A stretch of 64,000 bases of DNA from Bacillota bacterium (GTDB taxonomy: Bacteria > Bacillota > Clostridia > Ch29). Positions within the stretch are counted from its first letter, which is position 1. The number at the start of each line of letters is the position of its first letter. The stretch covers positions 1 through 64,000 of the forward strand of contig JABVCK010000027.1 of NCBI GenBank assembly GCA_013540605.1, written 5' to 3'. Of the stretch, positions 1,142 to 34,225 are shown piece by piece. The notes beneath the pieces are model-generated. The model had not been told where the DNA came from. It made no database searches and worked only from the letters and a program-made list of their open reading frames with translations. The translations under genes and the position numbers were made by a program.

Positions 1142-1494
1142 AGGGGACAGGTTCCTCGTCCCACGCGTCTTTCTTCAAGATCCTGTGTCGAGGGGACAAG
1201 GGGACGTGTCCGTGTCAAGGGGACGCGTGTCAAGGGGACGGGACGCGTGTCAAGGGGACGGAGTTAGTGTCACGCTATGCCCAAAAAATTTTCCTATTTA
1301 TTACGGCTATCCTCTTATTTTTCCTGATTGGAAAACCGTACACCGTACCCTTCTTTCAACTCCTCCAAATATGCATTCTTGTGATTATGCCAAATTTCTG
1401 CATGTCTGTTGCATTGTTGATTTTGCATGTTGACAATAACTCCCTCCCTCTGACACGATTTTTCGTGTGACAATAACTCCGTCCCTCTGTCACG
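1142..1494. repeat. REP-like palindrome array with 15-bp tandem units
   Basis: A GGGGACAGGTTCCTCGTCCC palindrome starts the array. The 15-base unit CGTGTCAAGGGGACG then occurs at 1211-1225, 1226-1240 and 1246-1260. Two more related palindromes of the GTGACA...TGTCAC type (centre ACTCCGTCCCTC) lie at about 1430-1457 and 1467-1494, the last followed by a T-run. These are the dispersed repeats that accompany Y1 transposases in many Clostridia. No convincing gene lies in 1090-1500; the short open frames here are repeat-encoded. Confidence 0.6.
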
Positions 1495-21903: not shown

Positions 21904-24900
21904 CTACGCTTTTTCTATCCTTACCCGGCTGCCGCTGCCGCCGGGTGTGGGAGACTCCACGATAAGCCTCCTGGGAATCCTGTTTTTCAGTTCGGGAACA
22001 TGGCTTATAAGGCCAATAACCCTTTCCCTGGAACTCAGCCTCTCAAGGGCGTCCACAACGAGGTCAAGCAGCTCGCCGTCAAGGGTGCCGAAGCCCTCAT
22101 CGAGGAAAAAGAATTCAAGGGGGCTCTGTCCCTTCAGCTGTATCTGCTTTGACAGGGCCAGCGCCAGGGACAGGGAGGTAAGGAATGTCTCTCCGCCGGA
22201 CAGGGAAGCAACCGCCCTGTGGACGCCGCCGTTTAAAAAGTCCCGTATGACAAATCCCTGTTCGGGGTCCAGCTCAAGGGAATACCTGAACCTTGTAAGG
22301 ACTCCAAGGGTCTCCGAAGCTTCCTTTGCGATATAGCGCAGTCTTTCCTCCGATATGAATTCGATAAAGCTGTTGCCCCTGAGAAGCTTTTGTATTTGCT
22401 CAAGCATATCGCCCTTGCCGCTGTATGACTTGTTTTCCTTTTCCAGTTCAACCCAGGTCCTATAGCTGTCCTTTACCCTCCGGTATTCCGCCCTTACACC
22501 CTCGTACCTGGAAATCCCATCATCCCTTTCTTTCTGTTTAACAGCATACGCCTCCCGGATAATATCCCATTCGCGTTCGGTAATGCTCCTATCCCCCAGC
22601 TTTTTCGCAACCATCTCCTTCTGTGCGGCAATACTCCTTAATTTTCTGTCAAATTCCTCAACATCCGCTTTCAAAATACTGTATTCCTCCTGGGTGATAA
22701 GAGCCCTCTCTGCCTGCTCAAGGCGTTCAAACCCCTTATCCCTGAGGCCCTTCTCCAGTCTTTCTTTTTCCCTTTCATAGCTTTCCCGGTATATCCTCTG
22801 CTGGTTGGCCAGCGTATGCTTTTGGCTCTTCGCAGCGTTATATCTTTCTTCCCAATCCTTGACCGCTGAGCTTAGCTCCTTTTCCTGTAACGACAGGGTG
22901 GTCAATTCATCCTCGGTTTGCTTCAAAGCGGCATCCGGATCTCCGTCTCCAACCACGTCCCTTATCTTCTTCTCCAGCTTTACCCTCTGCTCTTTCAAAC
23001 TCCTGCCTTCGGTCTCAACAGCGGCAAGTCCTTCGCTCAGTTCCCGGCGTGAATCGTTGAGGCCGTCCAGCTTGCCCCTGACTGTTTTGATGCTCTCCTG
23101 GAATTCCTCCGCTTTCTTGCGCAGTTCTTCCAATTCCCTGTCCTTCTCTTCTATTCTGCCAAGTTCAGAAACTGCGCTTCTTATGCCCGTTTTTTGGACA
23201 AAGTCCTTAAGCCAGTCATTCCTGTCGGCGATTTTTAATACTATCTCTTCCAGGTCTTTTTCCAGCTCTTGAAGGCTTGCCCTGCTCATATCCAATTCCG
23301 CCGCCTTTGTTTTCTCTTTGATTATATCCTGAGACAGCTCATCCTTCTTATACTGCACTGTTTTTCTTTTTTGTGCAAGCTCCTCTTCCAGCTGGTCCAG
23401 CTTTTTCAGCGCTTCTTCGCATACTGCGGCCCTGTTGTTCAATTCCTCTTCCACGCGGGTGATTTCAAAGGCCCTCATGCTTTGGGGCAGCTTTTCTACA
23501 AGACCGGCATATTCCGTCTCCCTATGCTTCATGTCATCCCGTATCTGCGCTGCCTGTTTATCATAGGACTTAATCTGCTCATTTATCACTAAACACTTGC
23601 TTTCCGCTTCCCTGTACCGTGCCTCGGTCTGCTTCTGCTCATCCAGGAGTATTTCAAGCCTACGCTCAATGTCCTCCCGTTCCCCCTCGCCCGCAAATAC
23701 CGCAGGCTTCGGATGGTGGGTGGAACCGCACACCGGACACGGTTCATTTTCTTTCAGGCTTTTCGCGAGTATTTGGGCCGTACTTTTCTCAAGCTCCCGC
23801 CTGTTCCCGTCAATCAGGACGTTAATATCCTGCAGTTTTGCGTTAAGAAAACCGGCCCTTTCGGTCCAATCAGAATAGCTTTTCTTCAAGACACCGGTCT
23901 CTGTCCCCAAAACCTCCAGCCTGCTGCCCAGGGCTTCCAAATCTGCTTTTTTTGCTTTGAGGGCTTCTACCGTTGATTTCAATTCACCTATCCGGCTCAG
24001 TTCATTCAGAATCAGATGCCGCTCTCCGGGCTTTGCCGCTTCCATCCCGTCTATCTCAGCCTCAGCTATGCTTATTTCCTCCTGCGTCTTATTCCTGTGC
24101 AGCGTCAGCCCTTCCAAGTCCTGCACCATTGTTTTGATCCTGCCCGCAAGTCCGTCATATCTTTCCTGAATACCCCTCTTTTCCTCTTCAAGCCCGCGGA
24201 TTTCATCTTCCAGCTTTGCCCCGGCCTGTACTTCCCTCCGGTATTCCGGGCTTGTTTTGATGTTGTCCGTTAACTGCCTGTTTTTTATCAGGGCATCTTC
24301 CAGGTTCCTGAGTTCCGACTTTACACCCTCGATCTCTTTGTCTTTTTCTTCCCCTTGTCTTTTAATCGTGTTGTACCGGTCCAGCAGCCTGCTGCGCTGT
24401 AGGTCCAGCCCCTTTATCTCCTCCTGCATCTCAAGGGCATTTCGGAGTTTGGATTTCCTCTCAATAAGGCGGGGCCTATCCCTCTCAACCCGTTCCATCA
24501 AGAGGCCGTAGGCTTCCCTGGCGCCGTCCAGTTCCCCTTGTATAACCGGAAGCCTCGCGTCCAATGCCTGCAGGTCTGAAATAGTCTTGTCAAGCATTTC
24601 TTTGGCATCCCTGTATTTGACAATTATATCCGCCAATTCCCGGGCCCTGGCATAGTTATCCAGGATAGCCTTTTTTTCATTAATCTCTCCGATCCTTTGC
24701 ATGTGCTCCTTCTCATCTGCAGTCAACCCGTCCAGCTCCCTGGTCAGGTCCCACACTTCTCTGGCCTGCTCGTAACGTGCTTCAAATTCCTTCAGCTCTC
24801 GCAATATCCTTTCCTTGTTTTCAAGGGCATCCTTCATATTTCTTTCCGCTTGCTCAAGGGTTTTTTCCGACACGTCCCCCAGGGCAGACATAGCCCCCTG

Positions 24901-25515
24901 GATGCCTGCAAGCTTTTCCCTGACCTCGTTCAGCTTCCTCCCCACCTTGTCGGTAAGCTCCCTGCCGTATTCCTCAAGGTAGAAGATCCTTTCAAGCATT
25001 TCCCTTTTCTTGGACTTTTCAAGCAGCAGGAACTCCTGAAACCTGTTCTGGGGCAGTACGACCGAACGGGTGAAATCATCCGATTTAAGGCCTATAAGCT
25101 CCTCCACTTTGCTGTTGACGTCATTCAGCTTATCCGCCAGGACCTGGTACTCATCTTCGCCCGAGACCCTGATGAGCCTTGACAGCTTGTTTTCAACCGA
25201 AACATCCGAATCCTTTTTCCTCCTGTATACCCTTTCCACTATATAGGTCCTTCTGGCGCCGTCCTTAAGCAGGTCGAACCTGAAAAGCACCCTCGCATCT
25301 TCGAGCTCGGTGTTTATGATACCCTGGGTGCCCCTGGAGGCCCTCTGTACATTCCCGTAAAGCGCAAGGGTTATGGCATCAAGCACCGTGGATTTTCCGC
25401 TCCCCGTGGCCCCGAAAATGCCAAAAAGACCCGTTTCCCCAAGGGTGTCAAAATCTATCCTCTGCATATCCTTAAAGCTCTGCAGCCCTTCTATCTCCAA
25501 ATACCTGGGCCTCAT
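21904..25515 (-). CDS. sbcC: SbcC exonuclease subunit (Rad50-like ATPase)
   Basis: 1203 residues. Walker A GATGSGKST is at about 35-43, followed by the Q-loop region. Long coiled coils extend on both sides of the zinc hook CPVCGSTHHPKP (about residue 590). The C-terminal lobe has the signature SLSGGETFLTSLSLALALS and Walker B FFFLDEGFGTLD (about 1135). With SbcD it forms the DNA-end and hairpin-cleaving nuclease complex. The start codon overlaps the sbcD stop (ATGA). Length and layout are normal. Confidence 0.95.
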   Translation of the reverse strand: MRPRYLEIEGLQSFKDMQRIDFDTLGETGLFGIFGATGSGKSTVLDAITLALYGNVQRASRGTQGIINTELEDARVLFRFDLLKDGARRTYIVERVYRRKKDSDVSVENKLSRLIRVSGEDEYQVLADKLNDVNSKVEELIGLKSDDFTRSVVLPQNRFQEFLLLEKSKKREMLERIFYLEEYGRELTDKVGRKLNEVREKLAGIQGAMSALGDVSEKTLEQAERNMKDALENKERILRELKEFEARYEQAREVWDLTRELDGLTADEKEHMQRIGEINEKKAILDNYARARELADIIVKYRDAKEMLDKTISDLQALDARLPVIQGELDGAREAYGLLMERVERDRPRLIERKSKLRNALEMQEEIKGLDLQRSRLLDRYNTIKRQGEEKDKEIEGVKSELRNLEDALIKNRQLTDNIKTSPEYRREVQAGAKLEDEIRGLEEEKRGIQERYDGLAGRIKTMVQDLEGLTLHRNKTQEEISIAEAEIDGMEAAKPGERHLILNELSRIGELKSTVEALKAKKADLEALGSRLEVLGTETGVLKKSYSDWTERAGFLNAKLQDINVLIDGNRRELEKSTAQILAKSLKENEPCPVCGSTHHPKPAVFAGEGEREDIERRLEILLDEQKQTEARYREAESKCLVINEQIKSYDKQAAQIRDDMKHRETEYAGLVEKLPQSMRAFEITRVEEELNNRAAVCEEALKKLDQLEEELAQKRKTVQYKKDELSQDIIKEKTKAAELDMSRASLQELEKDLEEIVLKIADRNDWLKDFVQKTGIRSAVSELGRIEEKDRELEELRKKAEEFQESIKTVRGKLDGLNDSRRELSEGLAAVETEGRSLKEQRVKLEKKIRDVVGDGDPDAALKQTEDELTTLSLQEKELSSAVKDWEERYNAAKSQKHTLANQQRIYRESYEREKERLEKGLRDKGFERLEQAERALITQEEYSILKADVEEFDRKLRSIAAQKEMVAKKLGDRSITEREWDIIREAYAVKQKERDDGISRYEGVRAEYRRVKDSYRTWVELEKENKSYSGKGDMLEQIQKLLRGNSFIEFISEERLRYIAKEASETLGVLTRFRYSLELDPEQGFVIRDFLNGGVHRAVASLSGGETFLTSLSLALALSKQIQLKGQSPLEFFFLDEGFGTLDGELLDLVVDALERLSSRERVIGLISHVPELKNRIPRRLIVESPTPGGSGSRVRIEKA

Positions 25516-26765
25516 GCCTCTTCACCGTCCTCAATGGCCATCCCGGCATCCTGCTCCTGGTTAACCACGTCCAGAAATATTCCCATCAGTTCGTCCGAGA
25601 TTTCTGTGCCTGTCTTGTACCTGTAGTAATCCCGGAAAAGCTCGTCCACTTTCCTGTTCTCCCTGTTGATGCAGGTATATGCTTCCACAGCTTCCTTTCT
25701 TACTATTGGCCTTATGTTTATTATCCCGGGGTTCATGCTTCTCAGGGCTTTTTGCTCTTCCATTGTCAGAACCCTGTCGGTATAGATTTCAAGGTCTATC
25801 CATGCACCCATATCCCTGCCTTCTTCACACCATTTCACAGCTTCCTGGATCCCGTTTCTTGCCGTCCAGCGCCTGAGGGGTCTGCCTGAATCAATACATA
25901 CCGTCTCGATCTCCGTTTCTTTTCCCGGTAAGGCATCCACAATATACAGAACTTTGGAGTAATCCGCCTCCGAAAAACTGTATGCAAGGGGAGACCCTGA
26001 ATAATAAGCGGGACAGGGCGCGCCTTTGACCGGTTGAGGTCTGTGGAGGTGCCCCAGCGCCATAAAGTGAGCCTTGGCAGGAAGTACGGAGGGATCCACC
26101 GTCAGGGCTCCGCCCACCTGCAGCGTCCTCTCGGATTCGGTTTCCTTTCCCCCCTTGAGGAATATGTGGCTTACGGCCAGGTTTACGGTATCTTCCCTGT
26201 ATTTGCCGCTCAATTGCGCCAGTATCTCCCCTATCCTGTCGGAATAAGCCCTCTGCAGTTCCCTCTCATCTGATGCCTTTGATATTAACTGCTCCAGCCT
26301 TGCTTCGGACGGATATGGCAGTGTAATGACCACCGCCGTGTGGTCGCAGCCCCGGATGCCCAGTTCGAGCCATCCCGGCGCTGAATCAACCACCCTGATA
26401 CTGTCGCCTCTGCCGATATAAGCCCCTGCGTGGCTTGCAGGATAACCGAGAAGTATTATCCCGTGTTTCCAGGCCAGCGGGCTTGCGGCGCATAATCTCT
26501 CCGGGTTGTCATGGTTCCCCGCAATGACTATAACCGCACGCTTGCCCCTTTCATTGAGCCTGTCCACCGCATCGTAGAAAAGCTCCTCGGCAGCAGCCGA
26601 AGGGTTATAGGTATCGTATACATCCCCTGCGATCAATACCAGGTCTATTTTTGCCTGCTCCGCAATATCGCAGAGGTCGTCAACAAACTTTATCTGCTCG
26701 TCAATGCGGTTTATGCTCTCCAGGGACCTTCCCAGGTGCCAGTCCGACGTGTGCAGTATTCGCAT
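25512..26765 (-). CDS. sbcD: SbcD nuclease subunit (Mre11-like)
   Basis: 417 residues from the ATG at 26765 (AAGGAGGGG upstream), giving the standard MRILHTSDWHLGRSL start. The phosphoesterase motifs are all present: DWHLG, GDVYD, GNHD (VIAGNHDNPERL), VSHIF and GHLHRPQ. The C-terminal part is the SbcC-contacting domain. It lies 28 bases downstream of addA and overlaps sbcC by 4 bp, so the four repair genes form one transcription unit. Confidence 0.95.
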   Translation of the reverse strand: MRILHTSDWHLGRSLESINRIDEQIKFVDDLCDIAEQAKIDLVLIAGDVYDTYNPSAAAEELFYDAVDRLNERGKRAVIVIAGNHDNPERLCAASPLAWKHGIILLGYPASHAGAYIGRGDSIRVVDSAPGWLELGIRGCDHTAVVITLPYPSEARLEQLISKASDERELQRAYSDRIGEILAQLSGKYREDTVNLAVSHIFLKGGKETESERTLQVGGALTVDPSVLPAKAHFMALGHLHRPQPVKGAPCPAYYSGSPLAYSFSEADYSKVLYIVDALPGKETEIETVCIDSGRPLRRWTARNGIQEAVKWCEEGRDMGAWIDLEIYTDRVLTMEEQKALRSMNPGIINIRPIVRKEAVEAYTCINRENRKVDELFRDYYRYKTGTEISDELMGIFLDVVNQEQDAGMAIEDGEEA

Positions 26766-26793
26766 CAAGCTCCCCTCCTTGAGACTAACGGTA

Positions 26794-29700
26794 TCAGAAC
26801 CCAATAATCTCGCCGTTCCAGAACAGGTATATGTACCTTTCAACAACCTTCCTTCCTGTCAGCAGCTCAAGGGCTCTGGAATAATAATCTATCTGAATCC
26901 TGTATTTATCCCTGATACTACGGCTCCCGTCCTCGGGGACAAAATCCGTCTTATAGTCTATCAGCACAAGGCCATCCTTCTCTTCAAAATAACAGTCAAT
27001 TACCCCCTGGAGGAGGATGGTCTCGCCGTCGTAGATTTCACCCGGCAAACCGCCGTAGACCTCAGTACTTTTCAGTTCGAGGTTAAAGGGTACTTCCCTC
27101 CTGACGATTTGGGCTGCGCAGACCCTCAAGCCTAAATCGGAGCGGAAAAACCTGGCGATCCTTTCCACTTCAACCGATGCTGCTTCCCGTTCAGTAAGAA
27201 GCTCCCGTTCAACCATTCCCCGTATCTGTGATTCTATCGCAGCAGCATCGTATACACTGTCAAGGGAAAGGTGCTGCATGACAAAGTGAAGGATGGTACC
27301 CCTTTCCGCAGCGCTGAAGCCCCGTACCTGTTCAAGGAAAGAGGGCTTCCTGACCACCGGAGCGTCCACTGCAAATGCCGGAATGTACTCTTCGGAAAAT
27401 TCCACGCCCGACCTTTTCTTGAGCTCGGTAACCGACAGTTTGACAGGAAGCCTCGATGAAGCCTCAAAGGGATACTTCCAGCCCAGCCTTCTTTCAACCT
27501 CTTCCGCCATGCCCCCTGTTGCTCCTGCATCGAACAGGTCCCCGCCGCTTTCAGCCGTTTCAGGTTCATCCCGGTCTGGAAGCGTGCTCTGAACCAAAAC
27601 ATCCTCCCTGTCCCACAGCTTAACCTGCCACCGGGAATTATCCTCCAGCCGGCAACCGGAAGGCCCGAAAGCGGACGGGGCAAACTTTGCAAGGGGTTCT
27701 CCGTCCCTGTGCCTTAACAGGGCAGGGCCTATCCAATCGAGAAAGCAGGAGGCAGCCGCAATTTCAAATTCGTTCAGCCTGCGGTCTGCTCCGCTGACAG
27801 CCTTTGCCCACCTCTCCACCGACCTTTCAATGCCCCTGACGCATCCGGTTATTATGAGCTTCTCCCTTGCCCGGGTAAATGCAACGTACAGGATGCGCAT
27901 TTCCTCGGAAAGGGTCTCCATCTTGATCTTGTACTTCAGGGCCTGCTTGGGAGCGGTCGGATAGGATACCCTCCGTTCATGGTCCACAAAATCCGGGCCA
28001 AAGCCAAGGTCCTGGTGAAGCAGAATGCTCCTGGACATATCCTGCAGGTTGAACCTCTTTCCGCATCCGGCTGCTATGACCACCGGAAATTCCAGCCCCT
28101 TGCTCTTATGTATGCTCATTATCCGAACAACGTTTTCGTTTTCCCCCATTATTTTAGCGCTTCCCATATCACCGCTACTGCTCTTCAGCTTGTTTATAAA
28201 GTTTATGAAGTTGAACAGTCCTTTAAAACTCGTTTCCTCGTAATCCCTTGCCCGCTCGAACAAAACTCTCAGGTTGGCCTGACGCTGCGTGCCGTCGGGC
28301 ATTGCTCCTACGTAGCTGTAATAGCCGGTTTCCGAATAAAGGTACCATATCAGTTCATCGGTCAGCATGTGTATTGACTTATCCCTCCAGCGGTCAAGCC
28401 TCTCCAAAAACGCCCTGGCCTTTTCCGCCGCTTCTTCCTCCTGCGCGGCATAATTCTCCAAAGCCTCATACAGACTTGCATCCCTGCCGGCCAGCCTTAT
28501 GTCGATAAGCTCATCCGGCGTAAAGGATGCTATGGGTGAACGGAGCACCGCGAGGAGGGGAATGTCCTGCATCGGATTGTCTATGATTTGAAGCAGAGCC
28601 ATAATAACCTGCACCTCAACGGTTTGAAAATATCCGGTACCTGCATCGGCATAGGCAGGAATCCCCTGTTTGGTAAACTCCTCCATAAACGTTTCAGCCC
28701 AGTTTTTTGTCGTTCTGAGCAGTACGACTATATCGCGGTATTCAATATCCCTGTATCGCCTTTGCCTTTTATCGTAGACCTGGAATCTTTTATCCCCGTG
28801 ATTTACCAGTTCCTTGATTCTTTTCGCCACTATAATGGCTTCGGATTGCACCGCATCGGGCTCCTCAGCTTCCAGGCCGTCATCCGCTGCCGCTTCTTCT
28901 GTTTCTGCGTCCTCTGGGACAAGTGGGACAAGGGGACGGTTCTTCTGTCCCAAAGTTTCCTCCGCATCAATAATGGAAGTGTCCTCATCCAGATCGATTA
29001 TATGGAGTTCGGTATCCCCTCCACAATGGACAGCGTCATCATCCGGCGAATCATACACTGCTCCCGGTTTAAGCGCTTCCTCTTCGGTATAATCCAGCTC
29101 CCCCACACTGCCGGACATTATCTGGCTGAATATAAAATTGACCGCATCTATTATACACTCCCTGCTCCTGAAATTCTTGTAGAGCAGAATTTTTCTATTC
29201 TTTTCGGCATCTTCTCCGGAATAGGTGTTATATTTCTCCATGAAGAGTTCGGGCCTGGCCTGCCGAAACCTGTATATACTCTGTTTTACATCTCCGACGA
29301 CAAAAACGTTGGGCCTGTCGCTCTCTTTTCTTGAAACCGCGCTCAGTATCACTTCCTGCACCGTGTTGCTGTCCTGGTACTCATCCACGAGTATTTCTTC
29401 AAATCTATCCCTGTAAGCATGGGCAACCCCGGAAGGCGTCACCCTCCCATCTTCGCCGATGACGGTGAGGATCTCCAGGCATAGGTGCTCAAGGTCGTTA
29501 AAATCCAGCACCGATTTACCCCTCTTCTTCGATGCATATATCCGCTCAAAATCCATCACCAGTCCGGAAAGGCATCTTATCATCGGATACAGGTATCTCA
29601 GGTCCTCGGTTATCCTCCCGGAGGGCATGCTCACGACCTCATCCCTTATCTTGCGAATCCTGTATTTCATCCTGTCCCGTATGGATTTGACCAGATCCTG

Positions 29701-30591
29701 GGCAGCCCTGTCCACCTCCTTGCCGCATCTCGGCAGCCGGTTAAATTCAACTCCGGACAGGGCTTCGTAGAGCGCATCCCATGAACCGCCGCACCTGTTC
29801 AGCAGACCTTCCAGCATGCCGACCTCCTCTGCAAAGCATTCAAGATAGCTCTCAAGCCCACCGGTGTTATTGATGATATGGACAGCACTCTTCATTGATT
29901 CCAATAGGCCGGAGATTTCCTGTCTGATGCTGTCCATCAAAACCCCGGCCCATACCGTCTCTCCAAAGTCGCTCCCAATCGGCAGGTTAAAGGCCTCTGC
30001 CTTTTCCCGGAGCCATTTCTGCGGCCACGGATAGCTCTGGACAAACTCGTACAGGGTCAGCACCATATCCTGGAGCATCCTGTCGTCCTTACTGCCGCCG
30101 TAGCTCTCCACCAGTTTTATAAAATCCTCATCAAGCGCTTCTTCCTCATACTTGCTTTCAAACAACTGCGCAAGGGCTTCCATTTTCATCAGCACGATCT
30201 CGGTTTGGTCTGCCACCCTGAAATTAGGGTCAACGTTTACACAGTGAAAGTTATTCTTTACCACCTCCATGCAGAATGAATGAATGGTGGTAATGCTGGC
30301 CCTGTTAAGAAGGGTGTACTGGCGCTGCAGCCGCTTTGAATCGGGGTTTGTTTCAAGGGCCCTTTCAATGGCGTCCCCTATCCTTTCTTTCATTTCGGTT
30401 GCCGCAGCATTGGTAAAGGTGACAACCAGGAGCCTGTCAATATCCACGGGGTCCTGTTCATCGGTTATCATTCTTATAATTCTTTCAACAAGGACCGCAG
30501 TCTTACCGGCTCCTGCCGCTGCTGCCACCAGGAGATTGCATCCCCTTTCATTGATTGCCCTAATCTGTTCTCTGGTCCAGTTGGCCTCCAT
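26794..30591 (-). CDS. addA: AddA helicase-nuclease
   Basis: 1265 residues from the ATG at 30591 (MEANWTREQ); a TTG two codons earlier is too close to the ribosome binding site. UvrD-like helicase motifs include Walker A AAAAGAGKTAVLVERI, ITTIHSFCMEVV, ILVDEYQDSNTVQ, VGDVKQSIYRFRQA and MSIHKSKGLEFPVV. The C-terminal nuclease motif is LVLIDYKTDFVPED (about residue 1212). With AddB it processes double-strand ends for recombination. A 36-bp REP-like sequence at 28916-28951 is inserted in frame in an acidic linker and encodes GQKNRPLVPLVP (about residues 547-558). Confidence 0.96.
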   Translation of the reverse strand: MEANWTREQIRAINERGCNLLVAAAAGAGKTAVLVERIIRMITDEQDPVDIDRLLVVTFTNAAATEMKERIGDAIERALETNPDSKRLQRQYTLLNRASITTIHSFCMEVVKNNFHCVNVDPNFRVADQTEIVLMKMEALAQLFESKYEEEALDEDFIKLVESYGGSKDDRMLQDMVLTLYEFVQSYPWPQKWLREKAEAFNLPIGSDFGETVWAGVLMDSIRQEISGLLESMKSAVHIINNTGGLESYLECFAEEVGMLEGLLNRCGGSWDALYEALSGVEFNRLPRCGKEVDRAAQDLVKSIRDRMKYRIRKIRDEVVSMPSGRITEDLRYLYPMIRCLSGLVMDFERIYASKKRGKSVLDFNDLEHLCLEILTVIGEDGRVTPSGVAHAYRDRFEEILVDEYQDSNTVQEVILSAVSRKESDRPNVFVVGDVKQSIYRFRQARPELFMEKYNTYSGEDAEKNRKILLYKNFRSRECIIDAVNFIFSQIMSGSVGELDYTEEEALKPGAVYDSPDDDAVHCGGDTELHIIDLDEDTSIIDAEETLGQKNRPLVPLVPEDAETEEAAADDGLEAEEPDAVQSEAIIVAKRIKELVNHGDKRFQVYDKRQRRYRDIEYRDIVVLLRTTKNWAETFMEEFTKQGIPAYADAGTGYFQTVEVQVIMALLQIIDNPMQDIPLLAVLRSPIASFTPDELIDIRLAGRDASLYEALENYAAQEEEAAEKARAFLERLDRWRDKSIHMLTDELIWYLYSETGYYSYVGAMPDGTQRQANLRVLFERARDYEETSFKGLFNFINFINKLKSSSGDMGSAKIMGENENVVRIMSIHKSKGLEFPVVIAAGCGKRFNLQDMSRSILLHQDLGFGPDFVDHERRVSYPTAPKQALKYKIKMETLSEEMRILYVAFTRAREKLIITGCVRGIERSVERWAKAVSGADRRLNEFEIAAASCFLDWIGPALLRHRDGEPLAKFAPSAFGPSGCRLEDNSRWQVKLWDREDVLVQSTLPDRDEPETAESGGDLFDAGATGGMAEEVERRLGWKYPFEASSRLPVKLSVTELKKRSGVEFSEEYIPAFAVDAPVVRKPSFLEQVRGFSAAERGTILHFVMQHLSLDSVYDAAAIESQIRGMVERELLTEREAASVEVERIARFFRSDLGLRVCAAQIVRREVPFNLELKSTEVYGGLPGEIYDGETILLQGVIDCYFEEKDGLVLIDYKTDFVPEDGSRSIRDKYRIQIDYYSRALELLTGRKVVERYIYLFWNGEIIGF
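28916..28951. repeat. REP-like palindrome inside addA
   Basis: The sequence has GGGACA at one end, GGGGACGGTTCTTCTGTCCC at the other, the same family as 1142-1494. It adds 12 residues in frame to AddA (on the minus strand GQKNRPLVPLVP) between two acidic stretches, so it is probably tolerated as a surface loop. Confidence 0.7.
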
Positions 30592-30593
30592 CG

Positions 30594-33500
30594 TCAATTC
30601 CCACCCTTTTCATTGATTAGTTCCCAGAATTCTTCGTCCTTCATATCCCTCAGCTGTCTGTAACTGTTTCCCCTGAACCTTGGGTCAAACTGGCATATGG
30701 AAGTAAAACTGCAGTACTTGCAGGGCGTACTCCTGTTCTTTCTATAGGGCTTGATTGCCACATTTCCCCTAAGTATCTCGTCTACGGTATCCGCAAGCAG
30801 CTTCTTTACATGTTTTCTCAGTGCTGAAAACTGCTCTGCCGTGGCCGCCGAGGATCGGCTGCCAAGCTCCTCACCCTTATTCAGCCTAACGGGTATTATC
30901 AACGAATCCCCTTCGATGTTCCTGTCCATTCCCTTTATCAGGTTTACGTCCGCGAGGACCAGCCCCTTCATTCTAAGCTGCTTCATCACGGCCTCTTCGA
31001 TTTCTTCATCGCGCATTCCATTTCCGTCTTTAACCATAGGGTCATCGATCCTGAAGTAGAGAATACCCCCCGGCAGGATTTCCCCGCCCAGTTCATGCCC
31101 CCCGTTCTCCCACAGGGCATCCAGGTATGCCAATAACTGGACCTGAAGGCCATGATATACATCGGATAGTTTGAACGTTTTAGCCCCGGACTTGTAGTCA
31201 ACAATCCTGATATATGTACCTTCCGGGGTTTCCATGGTATCAACCCTGTCAATCCTTCCGGTTAAGTATGCCTTGTCTCCCGATGGCAGTTCAACGGTTA
31301 TAGGGGGGAACCTTCCGTCTTCACCAAAGGCTACCTCGTATCCCAACGGTTCAAATCCGCTTCTTTTTATATGTTCGGCTATAAGCCACACAGACCTGCA
31401 CAAAATCCTTTTAAGCCTTTTTATCAGGTATTTGTACCGTGAAGAACTGTAGACAACCGATCCGGACATCTCCCCAAGGATTTCATCAACGATTGCGGAG
31501 ACCTCCGACGCACACTGCTCTTTCTCCAGCTCTCTCCAGCCAAGTCCCTTAACGGATATTCTCCTGGAAAACCTGTCTATTACATTATGGATGAAGGTTC
31601 CAACATCCGGAGGCGTTAGGTCGAAGGCCCTTCGTTCCCTGGCTTTAAGACCATACTGGACGTAATAGGAAAAGGGGCATGCCGCATATTTTTCCAGCCT
31701 TGATATGCTCGTATACACCGGCATCCCGTACAATCTCCTTGCCTTGTCCAGGGCTACCGGAGCTGCATGGTTGGTATACCTGATCCCCTTCAGGGCTTCT
31801 TCAAATTTTCGCCTCCAATCATCGTTGGCAGCGTACCACCTCTGGACATCCGCCCAAAAAGGATCGATTGAAGCCCCTTCCGATTTCCTTCTTGCCGCCG
31901 ATATAAGCTCGTTAAAGGTCGGCAGCGGTACTGTTATTCTGCTGAGCTTATCTTCGATATCCTCCACCGGAATAATATCCGTAACCTCGGTAATGCCGGG
32001 GAACACCCTTTTCAGCCTGGAGATTATTATGGAAGGCCGCAGTGTTGCACCGTTATGGTCGGCTAACGGAAAGCTGATTCTTAAATATTTGCTTGCTGCT
32101 GAAAGCACGTTATACATCATATACTGCTCTTCAAAGGCCCGTGTCCTTGTATCCTGGGCAAGGTCAATGCCGATTGAACGCATGGTTTCCCTATCCCTGT
32201 CGGTAAGGATACCCTCATCATTTGTTACGGACGGAAACACTCCATCGTTGACGCCCAGTATGTATAGTGCGGAAATTTCATGGCTTTTCGTTCTCTCCAC
32301 GCTTCCTACCAGGACCTGGTCAAGGGCAGGGGGTATAAGCCCGACCTTATATTCGCTGAAGCCTACCGATAGAAGCCTCAGAAATTTTTCGGCGGTTACG
32401 TATTCGTCCCCCACCACCTCTGCGACCTGGTCAAGAACCTCCATCGCTATATTCCAGATCTGCCTGTATTCGTTGGACAGGTTTAGCTCACCTTTTTCTG
32501 TAAGAACCTTTATCGTATCTTCAATTCTAGATGGTACATCCAGGTCAACAAGCAGCTCATAAACTGCCGTACACATATCAGATGCTTTTGTTCTGCCCCT
32601 GGTCTTCATGCGGAATGCGGCCAGGGGCTGCACCACTCTTTTTCTGATTTCGTTTATCCTCTCAATGTTTCCGGTCTCATAACCGGATCTTTCCCTCCCG
32701 TCAAAATTGGGCATCATTGCAGCATCCCAATCGCTGTCCCTTGTCCAAATTCCGCCTTTTATCCCGCAAGCCAGGACGTAGTTTTCAAGCATGTCAATAT
32801 CCCTACGAGCGATACCCGTTAGCCCTGTCTTCAGATACCTGAACACCGCCTCATAGGACCAGCTGTTTACAAATATCTCCAGGGCGGATAGTATAAGCTG
32901 AACCAGTGGGTGGCTGCTGACCTGTTTTTTTCTGTCTATGAAACAGGGTATCCCGTACTGGGAAAAGATTGCCGATACCAGTTTCTCGTATCCCGCAAGA
33001 TTTCTCATGACTACCGCAATATCCCTATATCTCATACCCTCATCCCTGCAAAGCCTGATAATATCCCTGGCGGTATTCTCAACCTCAGAGTAAATGCTTG
33101 ACGCCATGAATACGCTTATATCATTCGTTTTACCGGTATAAGGACTATGAGGAAAAGTGAAGAATTTACTCTCAAGATGCAGCAGCTCATTACTGCCGCG
33201 GAGCCTGTACAGCGGATTGCCGCCAAGTTCTACGGGCTTTTCCATAACCACCCCGTTCTCCCTGGCAATATCAATAAGCCTTGAGGCCGTCCTCTTCACG
33301 GGTGAAAACACATCGGTACCGTCAAACGTATAATCCCCGGCAATACAGTCTGTACACAGGCTTACACTAACCCTTTGGGCTTTCATCATCAGTTTTTCCA
33401 CAACCTTATACTCCTGCGGGGTAAACCCGGAAAAACCGTCTATCCATATCTCAGCTCCGTCAAACTGAACGCTGCGGTCCAACCTTTCGGCGAGCAGCGT

Positions 33501-34142
33501 CAGGTCATCGTCCGCATCTATGTATCTTTCATGAAGCGTCTCGTTAAACCGTCTGTATATGTGGGATAGTTCCCTGATCTTACACTTCAGCAGGCCTTCT
33601 TCCATCATTTCGCAGGCGCGGTTCAGGTCGTCCGGTGCAACATTATAGCGTTTGAATTCAGCTATGGCGCCCGAAAGAACACCGGTAAACCCCTGCTGCG
33701 AAGCAGCTGTTGAAAATATTTCAAGGTTATCCTTGAGTTCATCAATTATGCGCAGCAAAAGCATGCACTTACCGGCAGGGTTAATGTGGCGCCGCGCAGC
33801 CCCTCCTACTTCGTTAAAAACCCTATAGGCCATGCGTCTGAAAGACAATACCTCAGCCCGGATAATTCCTCCCGTGCCGGTCATGCTTACCAGGCTTTTC
33901 TCGGCCTGTAGGGTAAACTGTTCAGGGACAACCAGAATAAGAGGATTCATTGGGGACATTCCTTGTTGATAGTTCGTAGTTGGTAGTTGGTAGTTCGTAG
34001 TTTGCAGATTACAGGTACTAGGTGCTAGCCACTGGTCACTGGCCACTGGCCACTGATCACTGATAAGTTTTGACTTGATCTCATTCAAGCAGAAATGTGT
34101 CTTGCCGCTTCCTGCACGCCCGTATATGATTCTTAAGGTCAT
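30594..34142 (-). CDS. addB: AddB helicase-nuclease
   Basis: 1182 residues from the ATG at 34142 with AAAGGAG eight bases upstream. The start MTLRIIYGRAGSGKTHFCLN contains the Walker A. The C-terminal RecB-type nuclease has the four-Cys iron-sulfur site: ACPFSYYVQYG (about 820) and PCKYCSFTSIC (about 1142), with IRIVDYKSGAKTF as nuclease core. It ends two bases before addA. A block of about 115 bp of tandem repeats at 33952-34066 is inserted in frame straight after the Walker A helix, adding roughly 38 residues (SDQWPVASDQW, NYQLPTTNYQQ). Confidence 0.95.
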   Translation of the reverse strand: MTLRIIYGRAGSGKTHFCLNEIKSKLISDQWPVASDQWLAPSTCNLQTTNYQLPTTNYQQGMSPMNPLILVVPEQFTLQAEKSLVSMTGTGGIIRAEVLSFRRMAYRVFNEVGGAARRHINPAGKCMLLLRIIDELKDNLEIFSTAASQQGFTGVLSGAIAEFKRYNVAPDDLNRACEMMEEGLLKCKIRELSHIYRRFNETLHERYIDADDDLTLLAERLDRSVQFDGAEIWIDGFSGFTPQEYKVVEKLMMKAQRVSVSLCTDCIAGDYTFDGTDVFSPVKRTASRLIDIARENGVVMEKPVELGGNPLYRLRGSNELLHLESKFFTFPHSPYTGKTNDISVFMASSIYSEVENTARDIIRLCRDEGMRYRDIAVVMRNLAGYEKLVSAIFSQYGIPCFIDRKKQVSSHPLVQLILSALEIFVNSWSYEAVFRYLKTGLTGIARRDIDMLENYVLACGIKGGIWTRDSDWDAAMMPNFDGRERSGYETGNIERINEIRKRVVQPLAAFRMKTRGRTKASDMCTAVYELLVDLDVPSRIEDTIKVLTEKGELNLSNEYRQIWNIAMEVLDQVAEVVGDEYVTAEKFLRLLSVGFSEYKVGLIPPALDQVLVGSVERTKSHEISALYILGVNDGVFPSVTNDEGILTDRDRETMRSIGIDLAQDTRTRAFEEQYMMYNVLSAASKYLRISFPLADHNGATLRPSIIISRLKRVFPGITEVTDIIPVEDIEDKLSRITVPLPTFNELISAARRKSEGASIDPFWADVQRWYAANDDWRRKFEEALKGIRYTNHAAPVALDKARRLYGMPVYTSISRLEKYAACPFSYYVQYGLKARERRAFDLTPPDVGTFIHNVIDRFSRRISVKGLGWRELEKEQCASEVSAIVDEILGEMSGSVVYSSSRYKYLIKRLKRILCRSVWLIAEHIKRSGFEPLGYEVAFGEDGRFPPITVELPSGDKAYLTGRIDRVDTMETPEGTYIRIVDYKSGAKTFKLSDVYHGLQVQLLAYLDALWENGGHELGGEILPGGILYFRIDDPMVKDGNGMRDEEIEEAVMKQLRMKGLVLADVNLIKGMDRNIEGDSLIIPVRLNKGEELGSRSSAATAEQFSALRKHVKKLLADTVDEILRGNVAIKPYRKNRSTPCKYCSFTSICQFDPRFRGNSYRQLRDMKDEEFWELINEKGGN
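33952..34066. repeat. Tandem-repeat insertion inside addB
   Basis: Two repeat types lie side by side: AGTTGGT/AGTTCGT units at about 33969-34001 and five 7-base units (CCACTGG, TCACTGG, CCACTGG, CCACTGA, TCACTGA) at 34029-34063. The reading frame of addB runs through both. Peptides like SDQWPVASDQW and NYQLPTTNYQ are familiar as repeat-encoded junk in other genomes. Confidence 0.75.
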
Positions 34143-34225
34143 AGCCCTGTCTCCTTTCACTACCTTTTATTATATACTATTATCATTATTAGCTGCCATA
34201 AAATTGTAAAACAACCATTTAAGAA

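Follow-up and report, generated by a model that had tools for sequence, protein, structure and literature searches.

In the REPIN/RAYT system of Pseudomonas (Bertels and Rainey 2011), a RAYT reportedly acts in trans to move paired hairpins. Classical REPs have GTAG-type ends, unlike the repeat described here, many copies of which are single or partial tandem units. Palindromes that are read in frame within genes are already known, and the sections of Di Nocera 2013 (PMC3733652) on which we draw describe intragenic REPs of the GTAG/CGTC type, many of them in repair genes including recBCD, UvrA and PolA. The Rickettsia palindromic elements (RPE) cited there are likewise small palindromes that sit within genes and keep the frame. 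The same account describes TIRYT transposases, whose genes lie between inverted repeats that contain the motif GGGGWSAS. In the passages of Quentin 2018 (PMC6006769) that concern them, the transposases of TnpA_REP subclass 2.1 are held to be probably TIRYTs, and neither automatic nor manual search is reported to have found REP-like sequences near their genes. Other work on TnpA_REP shows, in the part that bears on recognition, that loop bases and stem can both matter (PMC8266576).

Here we describe a hairpin repeat that has been inserted in frame into the addA gene of a clostridial genome. Like the intragenic GTAG/CGTC REPs, it is a palindrome that adds to a protein, and repair proteins are among those affected by such REPs; the addA event is another such case. 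The tag of GTAG/CGTC REPs, as characterised in the same sections of PMC3733652, is an end motif that stays unpaired, and their loops are in many cases short, whereas the addA repeat has a 12-nt core in its loop and no end tag. RPEs, as portrayed there, lie within many genes, whereas one of 58 copies of the addA repeat is internal to a recognised gene, and it is by description that we set the two apart. The closest resemblance is to the TIRYT, TnpA_REP subclass 2.1 or RAYT group 1 systems, with which the repeat has in common inverted repeats around a Y1 transposase and dispersed copies; its GGGG-rich motif comes near to GGGGWSAS, and its transposase has a Y---NP motif and a putative C-terminal extension. 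Unlike subclass 2.1 as presented in those passages of Quentin 2018 (PMC6006769), the clostridial repeats form hairpins whose loop contains the motif and whose arms are peculiar to each transposase. This design is unusual, and it is a larger result than the addA event itself. No description of a repeat with constant loop and variable stem was found in the open-licence literature, where none of the papers containing the letters of the core has a title on bacterial repeats and TIRYTs were found only in Di Nocera 2013 (PMC3733652) and Quentin 2018 (PMC6006769); the words 'Firmicutes' and 'Clostridi' are absent from the text of the former.

An in-frame hairpin repeat within addA

The window is the whole stretch of DNA that was analysed, 64,000 nucleotides of a 3.35-Mb genome (G000) that was compared with five other genomes of its family (G001-G005). 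Open reading frames were called mechanically, and that at 26794-30597 on the minus strand was identified as AddA by profile search (TIGR02785 addA_Gpos, 1295 bits against a cut-off of 707.65). NCBIfam profiles give the gene order addB-addA-sbcD-sbcC at 21904-34160, a cluster of recombination nucleases within which the hairpin is located; SbcCD is known for hairpin cutting. The features of the locus are as follows.

26794..30597, minus strand: addA coding sequence, an ORF of 1267 aa matching TIGR02785
28916..28951, plus strand: inserted 36-bp hairpin repeat, translated as GQKNRPLVPLVP in addA
28916..28924, plus strand: extra upstream half-unit GGGACAAGT, which repeats part of the 5' arm in tandem and is characteristic of the repeat family
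28924..28930, plus strand: 5' arm TGGGACA, read from the window sequence, with its register from the all-copy stem analysis
28932..28943, plus strand: constant 12-nt loop core GGGGACGGTTCT, with 58 exact copies in the genome and none of the reversed control
28946..28952, plus strand: 3' arm TGTCCCA, the complement of the 5' arm, with sequence and register from the same sources

The plus-strand sequence of the insert, GGGACAAGTGGGACAAGGGGACGGTTCTTCTGTCCC, consists of GGGACAAGT, GGGACAA, GGGGACGGTTCT and TCTGTCCC in that order, and its translation on the addA strand forms residues 550-561 of AddA. The original prediction held that a REP-like palindrome had been captured in frame here, adding 12 residues to an acidic linker, and that repeat DNA had thereby become protein sequence. 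An alignment with 55 other AddAs (50 named clostridial orthologs and those of the five other family genomes) bears this out: GQKNRPLVPLVP is an insertion, absent from every one of them, relatives lacking the repeat included. The region between the conserved anchors GELDYT and QSEA is 85 aa long in the window AddA, compared with 71, 73, 72, 69 and 72 aa in G004, G005, G001, G002 and G003 respectively and 68 aa in Thermoclostridium, and we therefore conclude that 12 residues have been added. The linker is variable, and a few distant orthologs (L050, L063) have longer linkers of unrelated sequence. In a predicted fold of AddA residues 330-720, computed from 32 sequences, pLDDT is below 50 over fragment residues 211-247; the insert, at fragment residues 221-232, falls inside this stretch and is predicted to be unstructured, with pLDDT rising to about 90 just downstream. 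When aligned with Bacillus subtilis AddA (3u44), the gap between two matched stretches coincides with the linker. As with the intragenic palindromes of RPEs and REPs, the insert is in frame, the gene is otherwise intact and the element is missing from orthologs.

The best other copy in the genome (contig C19, 99304-99347; L119) aligns with the addA copy over 44 nt at 95% and has the half-unit GGGACAAGT too. Together with the 58 exact matches to the core against none for the reversed pattern, this argues that the resemblance of the addA sequence to the repeat is not due to chance.

A constant loop between covarying arms

The core is present in 37-58 copies in each of the six family genomes (controls, 0-2), and at least one match occurs in 47 of 118 genomes of a class sample, with a maximum of 149. 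When the 58 copies of G000 were compared, the core was fixed and the neighbouring arms varied, in complementary pairs such as GGGACA..TGTCCC, TATATCA..TGATATA, GAAGCA..TGCTTC and AGACA..TGTCT, among others. For a systematic analysis of the stem, 248 of the 253 copies in the six genomes were retrieved, 245 of them flanked in full. Over these 245 the perfect stem averaged 5.67 bp, falling to 3.17 bp when the 3' sides were swapped between copies (highest of 200 swaps, 3.42). A stem of at least 5 bp was present in 161 of 246 copies, whereas within-genome swaps gave 69.9 such copies on average and never more than 86. All four Watson-Crick pairs are found at variable arm positions. The repeat thus has a constant core and variable complementary arms across 245 copies in six genomes. 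On its own, the addA copy folds only as well as many of its shuffled versions (z -0.8 to -1.4), and single-sequence folding was therefore dropped as proof of a hairpin; the hairpin of this copy rests instead on covariation among copies. A second 5' arm with GGGG frequently precedes the unit, in the addA copy among others.

The designation REP-like in the original prediction stands in so far as the element is a mobile repeat, mostly extragenic, present in many copies and hairpin-forming, all of which are features in common with classical REPs. It is not a classical GTAG-type REP, since no constant GTAG was seen at the arms among the G000 copies compared by eye and the constant motif lies in the loop; with its constant loop and variable arms it resembles the TIR/TIRYT type. 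The same prediction had placed it in one family with an intergenic array at 1142-1494, three elements of which are listed here.

1143..1162, plus strand: array element akin to the addA repeat, core differing by 3
1255..1266, plus strand: array element with variant core GGGACGGAGTTA
1474..1485, minus strand: array element in inverse orientation, likewise with variant core GGGACGGAGTTA

Only the first of these approaches the addA core within the array, with three mismatches, and GGGACGGAGTTA occurs twice genome-wide, both times in the array. The array is accordingly a loosely related subfamily, and its assignment to the same subfamily as the addA repeat was rejected because its core differs.

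Of the 58 copies, that in addA alone lies deep within a long ORF whose product can be recognised. Two others in G000 (L105 7550, L118 2507) form the C-terminal ends of proteins, one with a MutS domain and one a molybdopterin oxidoreductase, and there was no Pfam match for four of the other ORFs that overlap copies or for a 248-aa ORF antisense to addA. Of 32 copies with GGGACA arms, 28 have no stop codon in any of the six frames, compared with none of 18 with TATATC and none of 40 with TGTCA arms, so that the type of arm bears on the ability of a gene to take in a copy. In G001, a burst of near-identical AAAAAGGGACAGGGGACGGTTCTTTGTCCCTTTTT copies was observed (L166, L170, L171, L175, L181, L182, L190, L191), several of them directly after apparent stop codons; the corresponding RAYT is L292. 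Low-complexity dispersed repeats of the AGTTCGTAGTTGGTAG, GGTGCTAGGTCCTAG and CAGATCGCAG types adjoin hairpins in intergenic regions of G000 (L104, L120 and others).

Y1 transposase genes and their flanking pairs

Genes for Y1 transposases are present in all six family genomes, and several of them are bracketed by an inverted pair of hairpins whose arms agree within a gene and differ between genes. The arms are TATATCAA in G000, CAGACAA in G003, TTGTCAC in G004, GAAGCAA and AAACCAG in G005, and AAAAAGGGACA in G001, where the downstream copy is 600 nt away. RAYTs score 75.6-79.8 bits against the REP_Tyr_transpos model (NF047646), for which the cut-off is 80, and matches to this model were found in 66 of the 118 class genomes. 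A motif filter, from which seven loci without an ORF and duplicate ORFs were dropped, left 33 distinct ORFs, 28 of them at least 245 aa long. Among these 28 full-length RAYTs of family and class, 22 have an inverted flanking pair bearing GGGAC, including L101 of G000, and six have none under the criterion used. The flanking pairs form a mean stem of 5.14 bp, compared with 2.83 bp when they are swapped between RAYTs (highest of 1000 swaps, 3.77). The translations contain YIHxNP and match helix-turn-helix models weakly (E 0.055-1.2); no solved structure was similar by sequence to the RAYT at E 0.001. The clostridial repeats appear to match the published terminal repeats of TIRYTs, although the fit to GGGGWSAS is approximate: GGGGACAG fits the consensus, and the commoner GGGGACGG has G for A at position 7.

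Across the class, genomes with at least 10 copies make up 17 of the 66 that have a RAYT match and 2 of the 52 that have none (p 0.0018), or 12 of 61 and 2 of 52 with the family left out (p 0.019), figures that derive from lists of RAYTs and copies compiled by hand and from one of several thresholds tried (p 0.002 to 0.06). Two of the 19 genomes with at least 10 copies are those without a RAYT match.

A large subclass of RAYTs reported to be without REP-like partners appears to have hairpin partners in Clostridia, which is the answer that we offer to an open point about these transposases. Because only the loop is conserved, searches based on a sequence consensus would miss such partners. The naturally matched sets of arms and transposases are also a ready-made test of specificity. 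Four Y1_Tnp matches in G000 that are 145-149 aa long and have equal scores (C12:7369, C34:18321, C35:44790 and C35:159402) probably represent an IS200-type element.

Origin of the addA copy

We consider it likely that a non-autonomous hairpin repeat, paired with a RAYT/TIRYT transposase of the HUH, Y1 type, entered addA during the descent of this genome. According to this model, the mobile unit would be the 12-nt constant loop core flanked by its complementary arms, and each transposase gene would have arms of its own, one copy at each end and inverted. Because each transposase gene has its particular arms, arms and loop together are most likely the site that the transposase recognises on single-stranded DNA. 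The addA copy is of the GGGACA-arm type, which is usually stop-free in six frames, and since the 36 bp also preserve the frame, insertion into the flexible acidic linker would have been tolerated and the copy kept. We infer that movement was catalysed by a transposase, that the arms were recognised and that the insert is neutral for AddA. The search of G000 yielded no GGGACA-arm RAYT, and the sole full-length RAYT there has TATATCAA arms; the mover of the addA copy may accordingly be missing, or may work across arms.

The original prediction also raised the prospect of further in-frame copies, and these were found. At a second addA site, after DWLGPCL, the core is in frame in G005 (L068, about 2433), G001 (L069 2493) and G003 (L071 2232), with degenerate traces in G002 (L070), whereas G000, G004 and outgroups have native RHRD-type sequence. 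The arms at this site are AGACA in G005, AATCCA plus AGACAG in G001 and AAACCA in G003. A BREX-1 PglX-like methyltransferase gene has an in-frame copy near its N-terminus in G005 (L283 1207), decayed in G001 (L165 890). A view of addA as a general hotspot was rejected, since a scan of AddA frames at 30 loci from 22 repeat-rich genomes gave three hairpin-like hits (L334, and L342 twice) that by eye are native coding.

An alternative that we hold to be rather unlikely, and that would need no transposase at this site, is that the 36 bp came from a copy already in the genome, such as that at C19:99304, through recombination or template switching, in which case the RAYTs would explain only the older spread of the repeat. 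The half-unit and the 44 nt at 95% that the two copies have in common speak for such an exchange, and the lack of a GGGACA-arm RAYT in G000 points the same way. So too may the second addA site of G004 (L067), where the native codons AGACACAGGGACAG match the 5' half of the repeat, AGACACGGGGACGG, at 12 of 14 positions, suggesting microhomology. However, one suggestive site does not make a pattern, and by eye the linker DNA of relatives at the first site has no evident prior match. Selection of the insert for a benefit to AddA or its regulation, through protein function or an mRNA hairpin, seems very improbable to us. In its favour, addA was struck at two separate sites within the family, and the sections of Di Nocera 2013 (PMC3733652) on intragenic REPs place many of them in replication and repair genes. 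Nevertheless, the inserted segment is predicted to be disordered, none of the relatives has the insert, and the scan of AddA frames at 30 loci from 22 other repeat-rich genomes gave no accepted insertion, several of these loci being incomplete or not true AddA. Finally, the idea of native coding sequence that happens to look like the repeat can be dismissed, for although a few of the 248 matches are by eye native coding, in ORFs of relatives that we take to be PfkA-like (L184) and SpoIIIAF-like (L212), the addA match covers 44 nt with arms and half-unit included, and its residues are found in none of the other AddAs.

Returning to insertion of a transposase-paired repeat, we tentatively suggest that the clostridial group-1 RAYTs (TIRYTs) may use a two-part code, in which an invariant GGGGAC-type loop would be common to the superfamily and the complementary arms would be an address private to each transposase. 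If loop and arms are separable in this way, resident copies might be re-addressed in place upon turnover of the RAYT, by paired change of the arms with the core kept, even in protein-coding genes such as addA. Among 26 filled pairs of copies with common flanks between family genomes, one (L183/L243) has identical arms, and another (L206 of G003 and L222 of G002) has a paired change of TAACCA..TGGTTA to or from TAATCA..TGATTA with both near flanks at 85%, which makes re-addressing at orthologous sites possible as judged from these alignments. Rewriting of arms as a common event was rejected, as it is clean in 1 of the 26 pairs and most of the others have unclear junctions. At one orthologous spot the copies are oppositely oriented in two genomes, indicating that independent insertion also happens.
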